38,830 bases of DNA. It comes from a virus. Numbering within the stretch: the stretch's first letter is position 1; every line of letters starts with the position of its first letter. Positions 6,957-38,830 of this stretch are shown piece after piece. Below the pieces are notes generated by a model that was not told the origin of the DNA, did not search any database, and worked only from the letters and a program-made list of their open reading frames with translations. Made by a program: the position numbers and the translations under genes. Location: the IMG/VR virus record IMGVR_UViG_3300023222_000295, positions 1 through 38,830 of that record, one strand, 5' to 3'.

Positions 6957-9479
6957 CTATGGTGTCTTAAATCCTAACGTTATTAAAAGTCCTTTCGGTG
7001 CGGTAGTGGATATTGCATCCACATCAATTCGAATAACATCATTTTCTGCCACATCATCATTTGCTGTGTCTATAACTGCGGCAGCTGCTGCCGTGTCACT
7101 TCCTGTCTCTGCTGAATCTATGGTGATTACAGTAGATAGCATGTCTGCTCCTTGTGTTACATTGTTAATTTGAATATCAGTGGTACCAGTAGTACCGGCT
7201 GTAATTACTTCGGCGTGTACATCAACCAAATCCATTCCGCCCAAAGTAGAATCAATATGGAAATAAAACTTGCCATCCCCAGTAGCTACATCTGTTGTGA
7301 AATCAACGACAGTTAATTGAATCCCCTTTCTAGTCCTTAATACATTTCCTGTTCCTGCCTCATCATATGATTTGTTTGTGAGAACATCAGTAGTAGCTTT
7401 TCCTATTAGTGTGTCTGTTGATGTGGGTAATGTTAACACTCCTGTGTTTGTGATGGTGTTTCCATGAAAGTTTATTGTTGATACGTCTATAGTTAATTGG
7501 TTAACTGCATTAACATTGAAAACATGAGAATCCCCAGTAGGAACATTGTAAGTCCACGCATTGCTAGCATCAGTGCCTATCATGGTTTGCCCTGTATTCT
7601 CACCTTGTAATCCAAATGTTACAGATTTTATAATTTCAGTAGCAGTATGATTACCAAGATTATCAGCTGCACCGGCTGCAACTAATTCAAACTCATCATT
7701 GGTTGCATTGTATGATATAATATGACCGCCAGTTGGCGTAGTTAACTGTGCTATTGGTAGTGAAACAACGGCTAATTCCTCACCGTCAAAATATTTTATC
7801 AATCCATGTGAAAAGTCAGTGATTGTGGTATCTACTGCAAAGTCACCATCTACTGCCATTGTTGGAGTTGCAGATAATGGGATACGCATAGTTCCGGCCG
7901 TGATTTGAATTGCTCCAGTTACAACATTGGTGGCACCATCAAACATGAAATTGTCATCTGAGAGTGCAGTATCGAACTGGGCTGCTGTTCCCACAACTGC
8001 GGTTCCAACTGTTAACGGACTTCCGCCTGCTGCATTTGTGTGGTCGTGAGTTGCGTTAGTAAATGACGCTATAGTAGGTGTAACAATAGTAGGAGATGTT
8101 CCAAAGACTAACAGTCCTGAACCTGTTTCATTTGAAATAACACCAGCTAGTTGGGCTGAGGTTGTAGCTGCAAATACTGATAGGTTATCAGATACATATG
8201 CAAAATTATCATCAGTTACCGCAGTATCAAATTGTGCTGCCGTTCCAGATACTGTATTGGAACCTAGTGCTATAGTCTTGTTAGTTAATGTAGCTGCAAA
8301 GTCATTAAATACAAACGTATCATTGCCTGCCAGTAGTGGAAGCGTAACAGTCCTGTCTGCAGCAAGTTCTGACACACCAAAGATATACTGATGATCAGCA
8401 GAAGTATCATTAATTTGTGGTAATGTTAAAGTCTTGTTGGTTAGTATCTGAGCACCTGTAAGGGTTGCTACTGTTGAATCGATAGCAATTGTAAGGTCTT
8501 GAGTAGTGTCTGTAACATCAATACCTGTACCTCCTATCAATGAATTAAATTCCAAGTCTACACCAGATTTTTGGTCAAACACACCAACACCAGCACCAAC
8601 GTTACTAGCTGTGTTTGTCTCACCACCTCCAGCACCTGCTCCTAAATCAACGTCTGCTCCGTTAATTCTGGCAAACAATTGATTTGATGTATCATTAAGC
8701 CAGACATCACCATTAGCCTGTGCTGAAGGTGTTCCAGCTATTGGAGCAACATTTATGCCGGCAGTGGTAGCACTATGGGAAACTGTCTGTTTGTTTCCAG
8801 CGATGAATATATTTGCCGTGTTAAGATAAGCAATGTCAGCAGTATCAGATAGTGCTGTGGTGGATAAAATTGTTCCACCACCCGCGGCATTAGTATGATC
8901 ATGCTGTGCGTTAGTTAGTGATGTTATGGTTGGTGTTACAATAGTTGGAGAACCAGACAACACCACATTTGTAGTACCAGTAGAGGTTGTTACACCAGTA
9001 CCACCTTGGTTGACGGCAACTGTTGTTCCTTGCCACGTTCCTGTGGCAATGGTGCCAAGTGTTGTAATTGTTGCCTGTCCTACATAATCAGACGCAATAT
9101 CGATATCGTTTGCATTAGCTGTGATTCTAGATGCTGTTCCTATTACATTGACTGTACTACCCGAACTTGTTAATCCTGTTCCTGCCGTGTCAAAGTAAGT
9201 TCCCAAGTCAGATATGGCAGCCTCTGTAATAGTTCCTCCGCCTGCCGCATTCAAATGACTGTGGGCTGCATTGGTAAATGATCCTATAGTAGGTGTAGTT
9301 AATGTCTTGTTAGTCATTGTGACAGCAAGTGCATCGTAAAGTTGGATGATTGTTTGAAGTGTTATCTTAAATGAATTGTTAGAATCTGTTATGTCATTGA
9401 TATGTAATAAATCCCCTAATGCAGGAGATAGAAGTAGGTCTAGTGCATTAATTTCTACACTGTCAGTAGGTGCTACCAT
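6957..9479 (-). CDS. Large fibre-like structural protein with repeated HxH modules
   Basis: An 840-aa low-complexity Thr/Ala/Asn/Val-rich protein. The phage-fibre element LTNKT recurs at least four times, and the phrase PTI.S(F/L)TNAxHxHxNAAGG occurs three times (HSH, HDH, HDH). A C-terminal ~120-residue domain (KFYFHIDSTLGG through KGLLITLGF) resembles terminal domains of other phage fibre or head-fibre proteins. In phage T4 gp37, HxH motifs hold iron ions along the fibre axis, and these could do the same. It is probably a trimeric fibre. It sits directly after portal and a small gene, so a head fibre or neck whisker is as likely as a tail fibre. Confidence 0.75.
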   Translation of the reverse strand: MVAPTDSVEINALDLLLSPALGDLLHINDITDSNNSFKITLQTIIQLYDALAVTMTNKTLTTPTIGSFTNAAHSHLNAAGGGTITEAAISDLGTYFDTAGTGLTSSGSTVNVIGTASRITANANDIDIASDYVGQATITTLGTIATGTWQGTTVAVNQGGTGVTTSTGTTNVVLSGSPTIVTPTITSLTNAQHDHTNAAGGGTILSTTALSDTADIAYLNTANIFIAGNKQTVSHSATTAGINVAPIAGTPSAQANGDVWLNDTSNQLFARINGADVDLGAGAGGGETNTASNVGAGVGVFDQKSGVDLEFNSLIGGTGIDVTDTTQDLTIAIDSTVATLTGAQILTNKTLTLPQINDTSADHQYIFGVSELAADRTVTLPLLAGNDTFVFNDFAATLTNKTIALGSNTVSGTAAQFDTAVTDDNFAYVSDNLSVFAATTSAQLAGVISNETGSGLLVFGTSPTIVTPTIASFTNATHDHTNAAGGSPLTVGTAVVGTAAQFDTALSDDNFMFDGATNVVTGAIQITAGTMRIPLSATPTMAVDGDFAVDTTITDFSHGLIKYFDGEELAVVSLPIAQLTTPTGGHIISYNATNDEFELVAAGAADNLGNHTATEIIKSVTFGLQGENTGQTMIGTDASNAWTYNVPTGDSHVFNVNAVNQLTIDVSTINFHGNTITNTGVLTLPTSTDTLIGKATTDVLTNKSYDEAGTGNVLRTRKGIQLTVVDFTTDVATGDGKFYFHIDSTLGGMDLVDVHAEVITAGTTGTTDIQINNVTQGADMLSTVITIDSAETGSDTAAAAAVIDTANDDVAENDVIRIDVDAISTTAPKGLLITLGFKTP

Positions 9480-12477: not shown

Positions 12478-12609
12478 CTAAGATTGCATCTTCCTTACTA
12501 ATTCATCAAATTCTTCTTGAGTCATCAAGTTTTTGTTAGCAAGATGCTCACAAATTGCGATTATACCTTTAATTGAATCATCATTATTCATTCGAAATCT
12601 TTCTTTCAT
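12478..12609 (-). CDS. Small helical protein coupled to terminase
   Basis: A 43-aa frame whose ATG overlaps the TGA of the large terminase by 4 nt (ATGA). The peptide is helical, with IKGIIAICEHLANKNLMTQE then EFDELVRKM, resembling the short SHOCT-like C-terminal helices that follow a linker. It is probably a packaging accessory or simply a co-translated small protein. The tight coupling is the best evidence that it is real. Confidence 0.6.
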   Translation of the reverse strand: MKERFRMNNDDSIKGIIAICEHLANKNLMTQEEFDELVRKMQS

Positions 12610-14414
12610 ATTCCAACACCAAACAGTCTGCCAGCATTTGCTTTATAGTTTTCATCAGCCACAAAGCAATAGATTATTGACATCACGCTATCAGGTGGAT
12701 GGTTAAATTCTTTGCGTGCCCTTTGTCTCGGATCTTCCTCTGTTGTAATGTCAGGATCCTTGGACAAGTCTTTTCGGGTTATTGAGCAAAAGTCCTTTAC
12801 AAGCCAGTCTGTCTCATATTCTTTTGCAAAAGGTATCATTAGGATTGGTCTGGAGTATTCAGGGTTTGGATGTTGTGGATGTGGAATGAGTGTACCTATT
12901 CTGTCGATGAATGATTGGATGCTAGTAGTTTTATCGATTTGATATCTTCCGAGTTGGGTTCCGTGTTCGTCAGTGTCTGAGACGTATTTTGATTGGGGTC
13001 TTGTTTCATCGCCAATCGTACGGCATCCTTGAAAGCGTTTTCTTCCAATTCCTCCGAATATAATTCCTTTCGAATCCGAGCCTCCATCTTGGATAATTTT
13101 GGCCTGGATTTGTCCGTAACCCAAATCTCCCACACCATGATCAATTCCATAGCTTTGCCCAAGTTCTGCGATATATCGCGATTGGTCCAGTTGGTGCTCT
13201 TGAGGTCTTGCTTCAATATGTGCAAGTTGATAACGTCCGGATTTACGCCATGATATAAGTATCGAAATAACAGTAGAGCTAGCTGCTGGGCCTGATCCGA
13301 AGTCAACACCCATTAGTATTCTTATCTCATTTTTATAGATATCCTTGAGTTCCCTGACTTCATCTGCTTTTAGCATTGAAAGGTATCGGTATGGATGCAT
13401 ACAAGCATATACCATCTCTGGAGTGATTGGTCTTCGTTCCGCTCTGTAGAAATCACCCATCGTGTGTGAAAGGTATATGGATTTTGGAAAATTCTTTTTC
13501 TGGTATTCTACACTGTTTTGCGGTCTTGTATTATATTTGGTTACGGCATCCTGAATGGTCAAGGGAATGGTAGCAAAGATTGTTTGTGGCATATGATATC
13601 CCCTGTATTCATAATTACCAGACTCTTGGGCAACCCATCTGCCAGACAAGATTGATTTAAGTTTATCAGGATCATTGTCAATATTACCTGTGCTATCAAA
13701 TGTTAACTTATCACGCCAATACTTGTCATCGTATATCCATTCTCTTTGATCTGACTTTTTCCAATAGTCATGCCACATAGATCCTGCCTCACCACCAATG
13801 CCAAGCATTTCCAGTTTACCTTTGGTTGCAGTTAAGGTGTATGTAGCCTTTGTCAAGAATTGAAGATCTTGATACTGACATTCATCCATCAACAATAAAT
13901 AATTAGAAAGTCCTTCAACCCGATTAAATTCATTCTCATCTGTCCTAATATACACAACAGTACCATTAGTCAAAGTAATCTCATCAACATTTGCTCTGCC
14001 ATGTGGCAAGAACTGTCGTAACATGGAATTTTGTAATAGTGTATCACGTCTGAATCTTTGCTTGCTCCATGCCCTTGCCCTATCCTGTCTGTCTACGCAG
14101 TATGTAACTTCTATATTATTATGAGATGTTGCTACGCATCCAATGACATCAGTACCGTATGTTGATTTGTATGTCTGTCTACCATTTACAATAATTTTGT
14201 TTGGGTGATTATCCTCATACACATCAATCCAGAATGGTATCTCATCCCAGTTTCTAGTTAGACCACCAACCTGCGGTCTTGCTTTTTCAATCCATGCCAA
14301 TGTATTGGTTGGCAGATCAGGAAGAGATAATACTTCTGCCTTATCCAAAGACAGTAGCTGCTCAGTTACATTATCATACGCCGAATCAATATGGTACTTG
14401 AACGGTATTTTCAA
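12606..14414 (-). CDS. terL: Terminase large subunit
   Basis: A 602-aa packaging motor. The N-terminal ATPase has a Walker A-like NGRQTYKST at 77-85 (Lys83) and Walker B LLLMDE at 173-178. The C-terminal RNase H-like nuclease has candidate metal ligands Asp371 (GVDFGSG), Asp430 (GVGDLGYGQ) and Asp575 (PPDSVMSI). Such proteins dock on the portal, pump DNA into the prohead and cut it. The gene overlaps a small upstream gene by 29 nt. It appears intact and full length for the family. Confidence 0.92.
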   Translation of the reverse strand: MKIPFKYHIDSAYDNVTEQLLSLDKAEVLSLPDLPTNTLAWIEKARPQVGGLTRNWDEIPFWIDVYEDNHPNKIIVNGRQTYKSTYGTDVIGCVATSHNNIEVTYCVDRQDRARAWSKQRFRRDTLLQNSMLRQFLPHGRANVDEITLTNGTVVYIRTDENEFNRVEGLSNYLLLMDECQYQDLQFLTKATYTLTATKGKLEMLGIGGEAGSMWHDYWKKSDQREWIYDDKYWRDKLTFDSTGNIDNDPDKLKSILSGRWVAQESGNYEYRGYHMPQTIFATIPLTIQDAVTKYNTRPQNSVEYQKKNFPKSIYLSHTMGDFYRAERRPITPEMVYACMHPYRYLSMLKADEVRELKDIYKNEIRILMGVDFGSGPAASSTVISILISWRKSGRYQLAHIEARPQEHQLDQSRYIAELGQSYGIDHGVGDLGYGQIQAKIIQDGGSDSKGIIFGGIGRKRFQGCRTIGDETRPQSKYVSDTDEHGTQLGRYQIDKTTSIQSFIDRIGTLIPHPQHPNPEYSRPILMIPFAKEYETDWLVKDFCSITRKDLSKDPDITTEEDPRQRARKEFNHPPDSVMSIIYCFVADENYKANAGRLFGVGI

Positions 14415-26958: not shown

Positions 26959-27675
26959 CTAGGATTTCTCATGAAATAATTTAACTCTTTCTTCTAATTG
27001 AACAGTAAAGTCTTCAAGATTTCTCACAAACACTTGTGAGATATTTGGTTCAGATGATACAAATAATATAATCTGGTCTATCTTTATACCAGTTGATTCA
27101 GTCCACATCTGGGCATAGCATGCCATCTGCAGATAATAATCATTGATGTAGGATTCTCGTTGTGTTGAGAGTTTTGTCTTAAAATCAAACACAGTATTTT
27201 TTCCATCTATCACTCCAACACCATCACAGGTACCTCCCAACTTCATTTTATCAGAACACATTGTAATCTCTGTGGTATACATTGCCTCAATATCTTGCAC
27301 CAAATCAGCTAATCTTGTAAAATGTGCACCGACAATAAGTGGCATATGTGGTAGAGGTCTATTATTCAAATACTCTTCCATAATACGATGAACGTCTGTA
27401 CCTATATTACGAGACCTGGCACTAATATGATCAGCTACCTTTTCACCCTTTTCAGCACGCCAATTCTCTAGATTTTGTTTGTCTCTTAATGGCTTTGTAG
27501 TTGAGAGCATCTTGGATACAGAAGGGTATTTCTTTCCACTAGGGGAACGGTAAAAATGTTCTAATTTGGTATGTTCAGGAACGGCATGAGTAAAGGCAGG
27601 ATATAGTTTCCACTCAAATTTCCTAATCGGTGCATATAACGGTACTTTGATTTGTGCACCGTGAGGGTATCTCAT
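26959..27675 (-). CDS. PD-(D/E)XK exonuclease, RecB/Cas4-like
   Basis: A 238-aa nuclease. Visible motif set: GTDVH with His96, GTCDG with Asp151, DFKTK with Asp164 and Lys166, and the later QMACYAQ with Gln183 and Tyr187. This is the order of RecB/Cas4/MGME1-like nucleases. In viruses such enzymes process ends during recombination-dependent replication or degrade host DNA. Neighbours (methylase, HNH) support a DNA-metabolism cluster. No Cys cluster of the Cas4 type is seen. Confidence 0.8.
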   Translation of the reverse strand: MRYPHGAQIKVPLYAPIRKFEWKLYPAFTHAVPEHTKLEHFYRSPSGKKYPSVSKMLSTTKPLRDKQNLENWRAEKGEKVADHISARSRNIGTDVHRIMEEYLNNRPLPHMPLIVGAHFTRLADLVQDIEAMYTTEITMCSDKMKLGGTCDGVGVIDGKNTVFDFKTKLSTQRESYINDYYLQMACYAQMWTESTGIKIDQIILFVSSEPNISQVFVRNLEDFTVQLEERVKLFHEKS

Positions 27676-36038: not shown

Positions 36039-36062
36039 AATAGAATAATTTGTAAAATTATC

Positions 36063-36077
36063 TATACAAGTATTAAG
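36063..36077 (-). promoter_or_regulatory. Late promoter motif copy 5
   Basis: Exact CTTAATACTTGTATA, 24 nt before the ATG of the connector gene. It would drive the whole tail operon down to 28586. Confidence 0.85.
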
Positions 36078-36186
36078 AAATTAAAATTATGTGGGCCAGT
36101 CACTTAAGAAAGTGCGTTACCTGTCGAGTTTCGAATTAAAGCGGCTGGTACACTTAATCTAATACATAACTAATAAATAAATATAA
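36078..36186. other. Intergenic hairpin stretch upstream of tail promoter
   Basis: About 110 bp with a small hairpin CACTT-AAGA-AAGTG (36101-36114), inside a wider possible pairing of CCAG with CTGG. It separates the 36187-36396 gene from the tail promoter. I looked for a tRNA and did not find a proper cloverleaf. Confidence 0.4.
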
Positions 36187-36396
36187 CTAAGGTTTTTCTA
36201 CTTTTCCACCAGCAATCTCACAGATCACGGAACCATCTTCTTGAATTCCTGAAATGAACGTATCATCATCATGTGGGCACTGTATCATTTCGTCGTGTTT
36301 TAATAGTTTGACATTTATCTCATATTTTTGTGTAGATTCATCAGATACTATTTTTGAGTACTCAGATTGAGGAATTGTATTTTTGTATATTTTCAT
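36187..36396 (-). CDS. Small protein, unknown
   Basis: A 69-aa protein with strands (KYEINVKLLKHDEMI) and CPHDDD plus a later Cys, insufficient for a clear zinc site. Its ATG overlaps the upstream stop (ATGA). It lies between the two-TM gene and the tail promoter. Function unknown. Confidence 0.65.
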   Translation of the reverse strand: MKIYKNTIPQSEYSKIVSDESTQKYEINVKLLKHDEMIQCPHDDDTFISGIQEDGSVICEIAGGKVEKP

Positions 36397-36581
36397 AATA
36401 CCTGCACACTAACCTTTCCGTTTTTGAGAGTGTATGCTTTTCGAACATATTTGCGATGCCAAAATGTTCCAACATTTTTTGATATTATTATGGCCTCCCC
36501 TACCACTAGTTTTATCTGAGTGTTTCTTTTTATTCCAAAATTGAATAGTATAGTTCCGAAATGAATTTCTGAAATATCCAT
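36393..36581 (-). CDS. Small basic protein, unknown
   Basis: A 62-aa basic, strand-rich protein (TQIKLVVGEAIIISKNVGTF, then RKYVRKAYTLKNGKVSVQVL), possibly a small beta-barrel. An AT-rich TATA-like stretch lies about 27 nt upstream. First of a two-gene unit. Function unknown. Confidence 0.6.
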   Translation of the reverse strand: MDISEIHFGTILFNFGIKRNTQIKLVVGEAIIISKNVGTFWHRKYVRKAYTLKNGKVSVQVL

Positions 36582-36650
36582 ATAGGGTAATTAATTTCAA
36601 TATACATATAATTTTCTAGTTGTAAAAAAACGTTTATTGTGTATATACAT

Positions 36651-36667
36651 AAAAAAAAGAAAGAAAA
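36651..36667 (-). terminator. T-rich terminator after two-TM gene
   Basis: On the minus strand the sequence TCTTTTCTTTCTTTTTTTTATG follows the stop codon of the 36688-36963 gene by about 20-40 nt. T-tracts without strong hairpins are the usual archaeal termination signal. Confidence 0.5.
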
Positions 36668-36687
36668 GACTAGGTTAAAACATTTAC

Positions 36688-36963
36688 CTATCTTTTTGCG
36701 GTTATGACTGCTGCTGCATTGTTCTTAGAAGTCAATTGTTGGCTTACCAATACAACTGCAACCATTGCTATTCCAGTTATGATCGTAGTGAACTGACTCA
36801 GATCAATTTCTCCTGTGAGGGTTATTGCTCCACCTTGGGCTATGGCTATAGCCATACCAATACCAAAAACCCCAAACACAAAAGCGAGTCCTGCCAAAAG
36901 AATGATCAAGGACCATTCTTTCAGATTGTATCCAGCTAGATCTAGTGGTGGTTGAGTACTCAT
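36688..36963 (-). CDS. Two-TM protein, holin or virion membrane protein
   Basis: A 91-aa hydrophobic protein. Helix 1 spans ~17-43 (WSLIILLAGLAFVFGVFGIG), a short turn follows with ITLTGEIDLSQF, and helix 2 spans ~58-77 (IITGIAMVAVVLVSQQL), ending in a basic tail. This fits a phage holin. It also resembles, in size and layout, the two-helix capsid proteins of archaeal spindle-shaped viruses, although this genome encodes an HK97 capsid. It has its own AT-rich promoter region upstream and a T-rich terminator downstream. Confidence 0.65.
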   Translation of the reverse strand: MSTQPPLDLAGYNLKEWSLIILLAGLAFVFGVFGIGMAIAIAQGGAITLTGEIDLSQFTTIITGIAMVAVVLVSQQLTSKNNAAAVITAKR

Positions 36964-37002
36964 TAATTGAGTTTAAAAATATTGTTTAATAAAGTTATGA
37001 TT

Positions 37003-38111
37003 CTAAGTCAACCCATCCCAGGCATAGTTTTTAAGGTTGTCCACTAACGTGACTTGTGGATGGTCTTCAGCATCTCGATTGTCTGGCTTCCATTCCCTAA
37101 CCCAAGGATTATCATTCGTTTGTCTGCACCCCTTAATTATAACATTTTTTACATTGTCACCATTTCTCCACATTAGGATAGGTGAATAATCAGTACCAGT
37201 ATTATAAAAATCACAGTCTTCAATGAGTATCCTATCTATTGGTCCATCACTTTCATTGTTTAGATTTATTTTGGGAGTTTGTGGTCTATGATATTCTTTG
37301 AACCCAAATTTGCATCGTCTTATCACAATGTCATTTTTGATTCCATTACTAGCTACGGAAATATCATTACCTGATAGTGTCTCTATGAATTCACAGTCCT
37401 CAATTACCATTCCCTGTGCCTTTGCGTAGATGGGGTGATCATGCCATGTAAAGTCTGACCCTTCTGGGATTCTTCCATTATGAAATGATTTTAATCCTTT
37501 GATGAGGATGTTTCTGGCTGGAGTGGTATTACTGTCTGTGTATCCTATAAATATTGCCTTTCCAAATGCCGATGGGTCATCAGACACGATGTTGCCTGTA
37601 TGGTGTACATACATGTTGAGATATTGAAAGTTCTGCATGGCTCTCCCAAACCAGCCACCCTCCCTAGTACCTGTGATTTGAAGTCCATCAATAATGATAT
37701 TTGAGAGATTGTTGCTTCCTACTATTCCATATCTCGTATTGTTATTGCCATCTAGGACAGCCATATGCTTGTGTTCAGCCCGTATGATTACCCCGCCTTT
37801 TTTTACTTTAAATAATTCATTAGATGATTCAGGTCCCCATAGACCATCTCGTAGTATGAGTTCTTCCTCGGGATTTAAATTATTAATAGCATCTGTAATG
37901 GATTCACCAGAATTAAGGAATATCTTATTTGATGCTACTAAGTTTTTTTTTCAAACCCAAATCCAATTATTATGGAATCGATTTCAGTTATTTCCTCAGG
38001 AGTATATGTTGTTTCATCAAATGTGGCAAGGTAATGATCTGCACTCTTCCTAGATACATTTAGTGCAAAATCCAATGTGGCTGGTGGTTCACCTTTTTCA
38101 TATTCTGCCAA
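37003..38111 (-). CDS. Beta-helix tailspike, frameshifted at an A9 run
   Basis: Two adjoining frames make one protein of about 369 aa. The first runs from TTG 38111 to TAG at 37938 (57 aa, ending FGFEKK). The second, one base back (-1), continues as ASNKIFLNSGESITDAINNL through a right-handed beta-helix (pectate-lyase-like rungs such as NIIIDGLQITGT, RILIEDCDFYNTG, NVIIKGC) to 37003. The frames meet at nine A residues (37943-37951 on the plus strand), an A AAA AAA slip site. Such spikes bind or cut host surface polysaccharide. Either programmed -1 slippage or a homopolymer sequence error explains the join. Confidence 0.75.
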
Positions 38112-38206
38112 CTATGTTCATTTGATTATAAAGTATTAAAGGATTTGTCTATGATTCTAGTTAAAATACAAACTAATAAAGTTATTTTTACTAAATCTCT
38201 TTGATG
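38112..38206 (-). promoter_or_regulatory. Gap with late-promoter-like sequence before tailspike
   Basis: 95 bp without a gene. The minus strand reads CCTTTAATACTTTATAATC, a near match to the late promoter with T for C at the front and one base missing. It lies about 16 nt before the TTG start, closer than in the exact copies, so function is uncertain. Confidence 0.4.
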
Positions 38207-38458
38207 TTATCCTACCTGGCCCTTGATAATTAAACTATCTAGTTTGTATTTGTTCTTATAGGCAGTAGCAAGACCTTTCAATGCTGCAGCAGGTAATGTT
38301 TGTCCACCTGCATTTACCCATTCTCTTTGAGGGTCTTCAATGTTTTCCTTCATTAGTTCTTTGGCTGTTTTGTTTCCTCCAGTTACAACCCAGTTATCTA
38401 TATCCTGGTTATTATCATCAACTAAAATAATGTGTCCATTTAAAACAAACTTAGTCAT
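38207..38458 (-). CDS. Small virion-region protein
   Basis: An 83-aa protein. The N-terminal half has strands (FVLNGHIILVDDNNQDIDNW) and the C-terminal half is helical with LPAAALKGLATAYKNKYKL. Starts by ATGA overlap with the junction gene and ends before the tailspike gap. No family recognised; virion accessory role inferred from context. Confidence 0.65.
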   Translation of the reverse strand: MTKFVLNGHIILVDDNNQDIDNWVVTGGNKTAKELMKENIEDPQREWVNAGGQTLPAAALKGLATAYKNKYKLDSLIIKGQVG

Positions 38459-38830
38459 GATTGTTCACTCGCTACATTTAATCCAGTTATTAGTAATGTT
38501 CCACTGGAAGTCAAACCAAGGTTTCTATAATTAACTAATGAACCTGCTGCAATTACTGCGTCTCCATCAGTTGATTCAAAGGTTGTATTAGCAACACCTG
38601 CAACTATTGTTAGAACTTTTACGTCAACGGTATCATCTACATACGCCCATGTTTCATTGACATCAATTGAGTTAGTTGTCACTCTAATTGCTATCGTCTT
38701 TATTGTTTTTTCATTTATTGTAGGTGATTGAGTAAGTGTTTGAGTTCCTATAAATCCAACGCCGCCAATGGATGCATATTCAGCAAAAGTAGCTATTGTG
38801 TCGTTGAATTCTGCATGCTGTTCATACTTT
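38455..38830 (-). CDS. Junction-spanning structural protein, C-terminal part
   Basis: This is the remainder of the 142-aa protein that starts at base 197. Reading on the minus strand, 38830-38687 repeats codons already seen at 144-1, and the unique part is 38686-38455. The C-terminus is Thr/Val/Gly-rich (for example TSSGTLLITGLNVASEQS) and looks like beta-sheet. Its stop overlaps the ATG of the next gene by 4 nt (ATGA). No internal Met is needed as a start once the circle is closed. The function is unknown and probably virion-related. Confidence 0.75.
   Translation of the reverse strand, partial: KYEQHAEFNDTIATFAEYASIGGVGFIGTQTLTQSPTINEKTIKTIAIRVTTNSIDVNETWAYVDDTVDVKVLTIVAGVANTTFESTDGDAVIAAGSLVNYRNLGLTSSGTLLITGLNVASEQS
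38687..38830. repeat. Terminal direct repeat, right copy (144 bp)
   Basis: Exact copy of bases 1-144. Treat these bases as the same locus as the left end when counting genes. The unit genome then runs from 1 to 38686. Confidence 0.95.

Follow-up and report, generated by a model that had tools for sequence, protein, structure and literature searches.

A split beta-helix gene with a candidate slippage site at nine adenines in a virus most likely infecting ammonia-oxidising archaea

The window analysed here is the whole of the IMG/VR virus record IMGVR_UViG_3300023222_000295 (38,830 bases), in which a run of nine adenines on the minus strand (A9) is the only homopolymer of at least nine nucleotides. 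At this run an upstream ORF (the N-part) meets a longer downstream reading frame (the C-part; Table 1). The run is directly followed by CTTAG, reaching down to position 37938, and the upstream frame crosses it as GAA AAA AAA ACT TAG, whereas the C-part ends with the stop codon at 37003-37005. A preliminary description of this DNA had given the coordinates of A9 and CTTAG correctly, and it was also right that the two frames differ by -1; the 57-aa ORF stops one codon past the run. The TTG start of the N-part aligns with the ATG of its homologue in a related virus record, IMGVR_UViG_3300038492_000644 (hereafter G017). A TATA-like stretch precedes the N-part, and another lies at about -30 to -21 in G017; both are weak, were recognised by eye and were judged against what we take to be archaeal promoter spacing.

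Table 1. Features of the split gene and its surroundings in the window
Feature	Position	Strand	Remarks
TATA-like AT-rich stretch	38133..38140	-	~22-29 nt upstream of TTG; by eye, weak
Upstream ORF (N-part), 57 aa, TTG start	37938..38111	-	37% identical to G017 58-aa ORF
A9 run, proposed slip site	37943..37951	-	T9 on plus strand; A9 also at homologous place in G017
TAG stop of upstream frame	37938..37940	-	one codon past run; G017 equivalent is TAA
Downstream C-part, -1 frame, 315 codons + stop	37003..37950	-	48% identical to G017; predicted right-handed beta-helix (model)
62 codons of -1 frame without ATG/GTG/TTG	37765..37950	-	protein homology with G017, 21/59 identical
Possible RNA stem	37883..37941	-	starts 1 nt after run; window only, absent in G017

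The terminase of the window (12606-14414, phrog_675) has relatives at five loci of genome assemblies, 43-52% identical, which belong to Nitrosopumilus, Nitrosarchaeum and other Thaumarchaeota MAGs; it also weakly matches 36 phage records, mostly of Bacillus and two of Haloarcula. Given the relatives in Thaumarchaeota MAGs, the virus most likely infects Nitrososphaeria, i.e., ammonia-oxidising archaea. Elsewhere in the window (26959-27675), an ORF matches the PD-(D/E)XK nuclease PF12705 (E 1.8e-5).

G017, a record of 42,299 bases whose terminase is 69% identical to that of the window, was reached through the terminase among 18 terminase-related IMG/VR records, 13 of them fragments under 11 kb. 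Each part has its sole homologue among the 18 in G017 (C-part, E 1.4e-76; N-part, E 1.8e-7), where the two halves match the window in order, strand and -1 frame relation. The G017 junction reads TCA AAA AAA AAC TAA, with exactly nine A residues (L022, 1638-1646) and a stop after one further codon. G017 has no other run of at least nine nucleotides; by crude arithmetic, the chance that a single random run hits a specified 20-nt site on a specified strand is about 2e-4, a figure that leaves uncounted the common frame relation and the nearby stop. When the junction pattern was scanned for across all viral contigs, G017 was the sole match, and the known copies of the split gene are these two, both in assembled metagenome virus records. 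The preliminary description had read the junction as a frame slip and had pointed to related genomes as the place to look for the same split; A9, stop and -1 relation are indeed conserved in this relative, which is about half identical in protein. Hence, the N-part and the C-part very probably constitute one gene that is expressed via a frame change at A9.

The C-frame can be followed upstream of any usual start codon. Its first ATG, GTG or TTG is codon 63 (at 37764) in the window, while in G017 the run is followed by 74 codons lacking all three, and CTG too is absent before codon 63 in the window and codon 75 in G017. Yet the homology of the two C-frames begins almost at the run, and the pre-start stretch is significantly similar between the two viruses (E 5e-14, pairwise blastp). 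Identity at codon positions 1, 2 and 3 is 49, 63 and 41% in this stretch; the corresponding values are 50, 70 and 33% for the N-part and 64, 67 and 42% for the remainder of the C-part. Protein-level constraint acts on the C-half even before the first usual start. In both the window and G017, a stop in the third frame lies no more than 6-8 codons past the run. Thus, the sequences suggest that in two distantly related viruses of ammonia-oxidising archaea the full protein probably needs a slip at A9.

An AlphaFold2 model of the C-part, made with two sequences, reached a pLDDT of 77 and a pTM of 0.82, with strands from residue 9 onward, and predicts a right-handed beta-helix; the name of the fold comes from Foldseek matches, of which the best was the alginate lyase 6kfn (E 2.5e-6), followed by pectate-lyase-like enzymes and, lower, by the Sf6 and CAB1 tailspikes. 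In BFVD, Foldseek retrieved beta-helix and tail spike proteins, while comparison of the beta-helix sequence with solved structures, Pfam and PHROG gave no match. On the basis of the model, "tailspike" is a plausible identity, and the protein could possibly be a spike, a head fibre or a glycan-degrading virion protein. The N-part model (two sequences, pLDDT 72), which is of low confidence, consists of a small hairpin and a helix. The end of the C-part (window 37006-37173) includes an unbroken run of 21 residues shared with G017, PWVREWKPDNRDAEDHPQVTL, whereas identity averages only 48%; no further copy of it was found in the viral contigs.

Further copies of the gene were sought widely. Protein and profile scans of the viral contigs, one of them with the neighbouring 83-aa ORF, yielded no copy beyond G017, and the contig L024 was rejected as a weak beta-helix match (29% over 91 residues; E 0.5 by profile). 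The scan of the genome contigs gave no further copy, and none was found in the five terminase-bearing MAGs, in 250 genomes of the family or in phages. Among 400 genomes of the class, the C-part profile produced three weak matches (E 3e-4 to 0.008), all in ORFs without internal stops that we take to be other beta-helix proteins. The N-part, for which no relative beyond G017 is known, weakly matched two of the 400 (L046 and L047) by profile, and L046 was set aside as its neighbours, judged by eye, resemble ordinary archaeal information-processing genes. As the scan patterns were few and exact, distant copies can be missed. Separately, an in-frame A9 occurs in an unsplit ORF, called portal-like as a guess from its position, of three related viruses (L006:5345-5353, L010:7654-7662 and L004:7431-7439), which we regard as a control; both other frames stop a few codons on, as in the Thermus dnaX layout, where slippage leads to the shorter product. 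A fourth homologous place, in L009, aligns poorly and is without A9.

The plain alternative named by the preliminary description, that a sequencing or assembly error in the homopolymer has broken an ordinary unsplit gene, has in its favour that homopolymers are error-prone and that the window and G017 records are both metagenome assemblies. Since A9, stop and -1 relation are kept in two diverged viruses, a random assembly error is unlikely: it would have to occur identically in two records, and two independent errors at a homologous place are improbable. Moreover, in a census of 24 sequences (the window, five records and 18 loci) we counted 13 runs of at least nine, seven of which lie inside uninterrupted ORFs; the others are the two split genes, one ORF junction in L012 and three runs elsewhere. 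Three of the 13 were called as ten A's, which together with the seven in uninterrupted ORFs argues against systematic miscounting of such runs. We therefore hold this explanation to be highly improbable. The preliminary description had also expected that eight or ten A residues would restore a single frame; the two lengths would not both do so. Scarcely more probable is the explanation by two separate genes, with the C-part initiating at an unusual codon through coupling to the N-part stop, or by a decaying gene. ATT, ATA and ATC codons do occur in the C-frame from codon 10 in the window and codon 16 in G017, but none of the four usual or near-usual starts precedes the codons given above although homology extends almost to the run, and the same break is present in two diverged copies that are under constraint; a start inside the C-part at ATT or ATA leaves the common run and the common stop unexplained. 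The contrast is provided by L012 (656-936), which we considered as a third case and rejected: two ORFs meet there at an A10 run in frames that differ by -1, but a TTG belonging to the second overlaps the stop codon of the first, which makes ordinary coupling likely. Somewhat less remote, though still improbable, is phase variation, in which A9 would be a DNA contingency tract whose length changes during replication switch the beta-helix on or off, with both records caught in the off state. Phase-variable genes often encode surface proteins, according to the available text of PMC3711429, which treats frame transitions and phase variation, and runs of at least nine A or T are strongly depleted in host-group DNA, coding and noncoding alike (see below), which suggests instability at the DNA level. 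On the other side, the run has exactly nine residues and the same register in both viruses, and an on state would be expected in some copies of a contingency tract, for which two copies are too few to tell.

A frame change at A9 in a slip-dependent conserved gene, whatever the mechanism, is thus what we consider likely, and two mechanisms have to be compared. In the one that we tentatively put forward, with confidence just short of even, the locus is one split gene of a tailed virus of Nitrososphaeria with a functional slip site worked by transcriptional slippage. RNA polymerase would stutter on A9 and produce mRNAs with varying numbers of A residues. The faithful transcript and the third frame would end a few codons past the run and give a protein of ~57-61 aa, while a minority of transcripts with coinciding frames would encode the full protein, in which the small N-domain is fused to the beta-helix (~369 aa, or ~399 aa for G017). 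The short and full products that the preliminary description had envisaged are therefore possible, whereas its further ideas, that the short product is an anchor and that slippage tunes spike number, are conjectures. The likely effect would be to keep a virion protein that binds or cleaves glycans at a low, fixed dose. In our search of the literature we found no report of transcriptional slippage in archaea, hence the behaviour of the archaeal enzyme on A9 is assumed. The other mechanism, which we regard as rather unlikely but as the most serious competitor, is classical -1 programmed ribosomal frameshifting, in which tRNA-Lys slips on A_AAA_AAA (or on A_AAA_AAC in G017) and the same products result. 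The A_AAA_AAA heptamer that the preliminary description had singled out is in frame in both viruses, but one is inevitable in any A9, and A9 is longer than the heptamer needs. Ribosomal slippage has archaeal precedents in fucA1 (PMC8211752) and in tail genes of haloarchaeal viruses, one with A_AAA_AAC (PMC5009743). In the window, moreover, the possible RNA stem begins just past the run and is stable at a length of 65 nt (-14.8 kcal/mol, z -3.45, none of 200 shuffles as stable), whereas the z value is -2.38 at 95 nt and -0.08 at 43 nt, and 8% of the 970 pieces of 65 nt in the window are as stable. In G017 no downstream offset or length tried reached a z of -1.5; hence, no stimulatory RNA structure common to both viruses was found.

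Two further observations bear on the choice between polymerase and ribosome. The run has equal length in the two viruses but begins at a different codon position (2 for the window, 3 for G017), which is expected if the run itself matters. In addition, we compared runs in two MAGs of the host group, 380 kb of G020 and 316 kb of G021, with shuffles of their synonymous codons (the loci behind these counts are L049-L067 and L069-L084). Sense runs of at least nine A residues in ORFs were scarce (4 observed against 27.6 expected in G020; 15 against 52.0 in G021), in all three codon phases, whereas in-frame A_AAA_AAA showed no such scarcity (116 observed against 66.7 expected in G020; 131 against 120.4 in G021). 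That A9 is avoided while host-group genes tolerate the bare in-frame heptamer counts against a strong slip of the ribosome on the heptamer and in favour of slippage by the polymerase at nine, and, with no RNA stimulator shared by both viruses, polymerase slippage may replace classical frameshifting here. However, noncoding DNA is poor in A or T runs of at least nine as well (0 observed against 14.4 expected in G020, and 3 against 19.7 in G021), so that instability at the DNA level may be the cause and RNA polymerase is not singled out; the avoidance of A9 by the hosts cannot serve as proof of slippage by this enzyme. The depletion in the viral group itself is milder (4 against 10.0 expected). 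Taken together, the differing codon phase, the lack of a common RNA structure and the avoidance of A9, but not of the in-frame heptamer, in host genes make us lean to slippage by RNA polymerase, and transcriptional slippage is only moderately favoured over ribosomal frameshifting.

The place of the gene differs between the two viruses. Provided that the window record is circularly permuted, the gene is close to the head-tail junction there, and in G017 it is found upstream of the terminase. It resembles an accessory cassette that travels as one unit, and halves that move together suit a single gene. An 840-aa ORF of the window (6957-9479) is 45% identical over 111 aa to a G017 ORF in the head-tail gap, the same gap that holds the beta-helix gene in the window (36039-38830); accessory genes seem to change places between the two viruses. 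We consider it possible, with somewhat less confidence than we place in transcriptional slippage at a split gene, that an archaeal virus rations a spike-like beta-helix protein by the stuttering of host RNA polymerase, through a set-ratio switch carried by a cassette that moves between virus genomes. If real, this would be a small, portable and directly testable slip cassette, in hosts whose decoding is little known. Standard gene callers would drop at least the first 62 codons of such genes.

In the literature on archaeal and thaumarchaeal viruses we found no slippage-governed spike-like protein and no tailspike with a slip site, and the available parts of PMC6563490 and PMC8651126 contain no frameshifted spike gene of thaumarchaeal or other archaeal tailed viruses. 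Among viral genes elsewhere, a phage methyltransferase has a poly-A frameshift for which slippage has been suggested (PMC2853527). One close likeness is to the bacterial A9/T9 slippage genes described in PMC1088944, where nine A residues are the threshold for slippage and the examples are IS transposases, Shigella mxiE and Thermus dnaX: they share with the window a run of nine (or a U run), a close stop and a conserved extension beyond the run. As with mxiE and the IS elements, the longer product would arise in the shifted frame only, whereas the longer product of Thermus dnaX is the unshifted one (PMC1088944). Unlike in those genes, the setting proposed here is an archaeal virus, an archaeal RNA polymerase and a beta-helix protein, and slippage is a proposal. 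According to a 2021 review (PMC8211752), -1 programmed frameshifting had by then been described in detail for a single archaeal case. Within archaea, fucA1 of Saccharolobus solfataricus similarly combines an A-rich slip site with parts in -1 frames, but it is cellular and experimentally proven, most of its relatives are unsplit and its ORFs overlap by 40 bp (PMC8211752). The archaeal virus -1 sites named in PMC5009743 are those of tail assembly genes, and frameshifting in tail assembly chaperones, including those of haloarchaeal HVTV-1 and HCTV-1/2/5, likewise concerns tailed viruses and a -1 shift, in one case on A_AAA_AAC (PMC5009743). Unlike these chaperones, the gene of the window encodes a beta-helix protein rather than a small protein before the tape measure, and the shift adds a long C-part of another fold. 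Finally, the modelled right-handed beta-helix resembles phage tailspikes and beta-helix polysaccharide lyases (the alginate lyase 6kfn and the Sf6 tailspike 2vbe), from which it differs in having no sequence match and in that the best Foldseek match is the alginate lyase, with tailspikes lower. What we propose is a mechanism of known type that would act in an unusual gene and in an unusual group of hosts.
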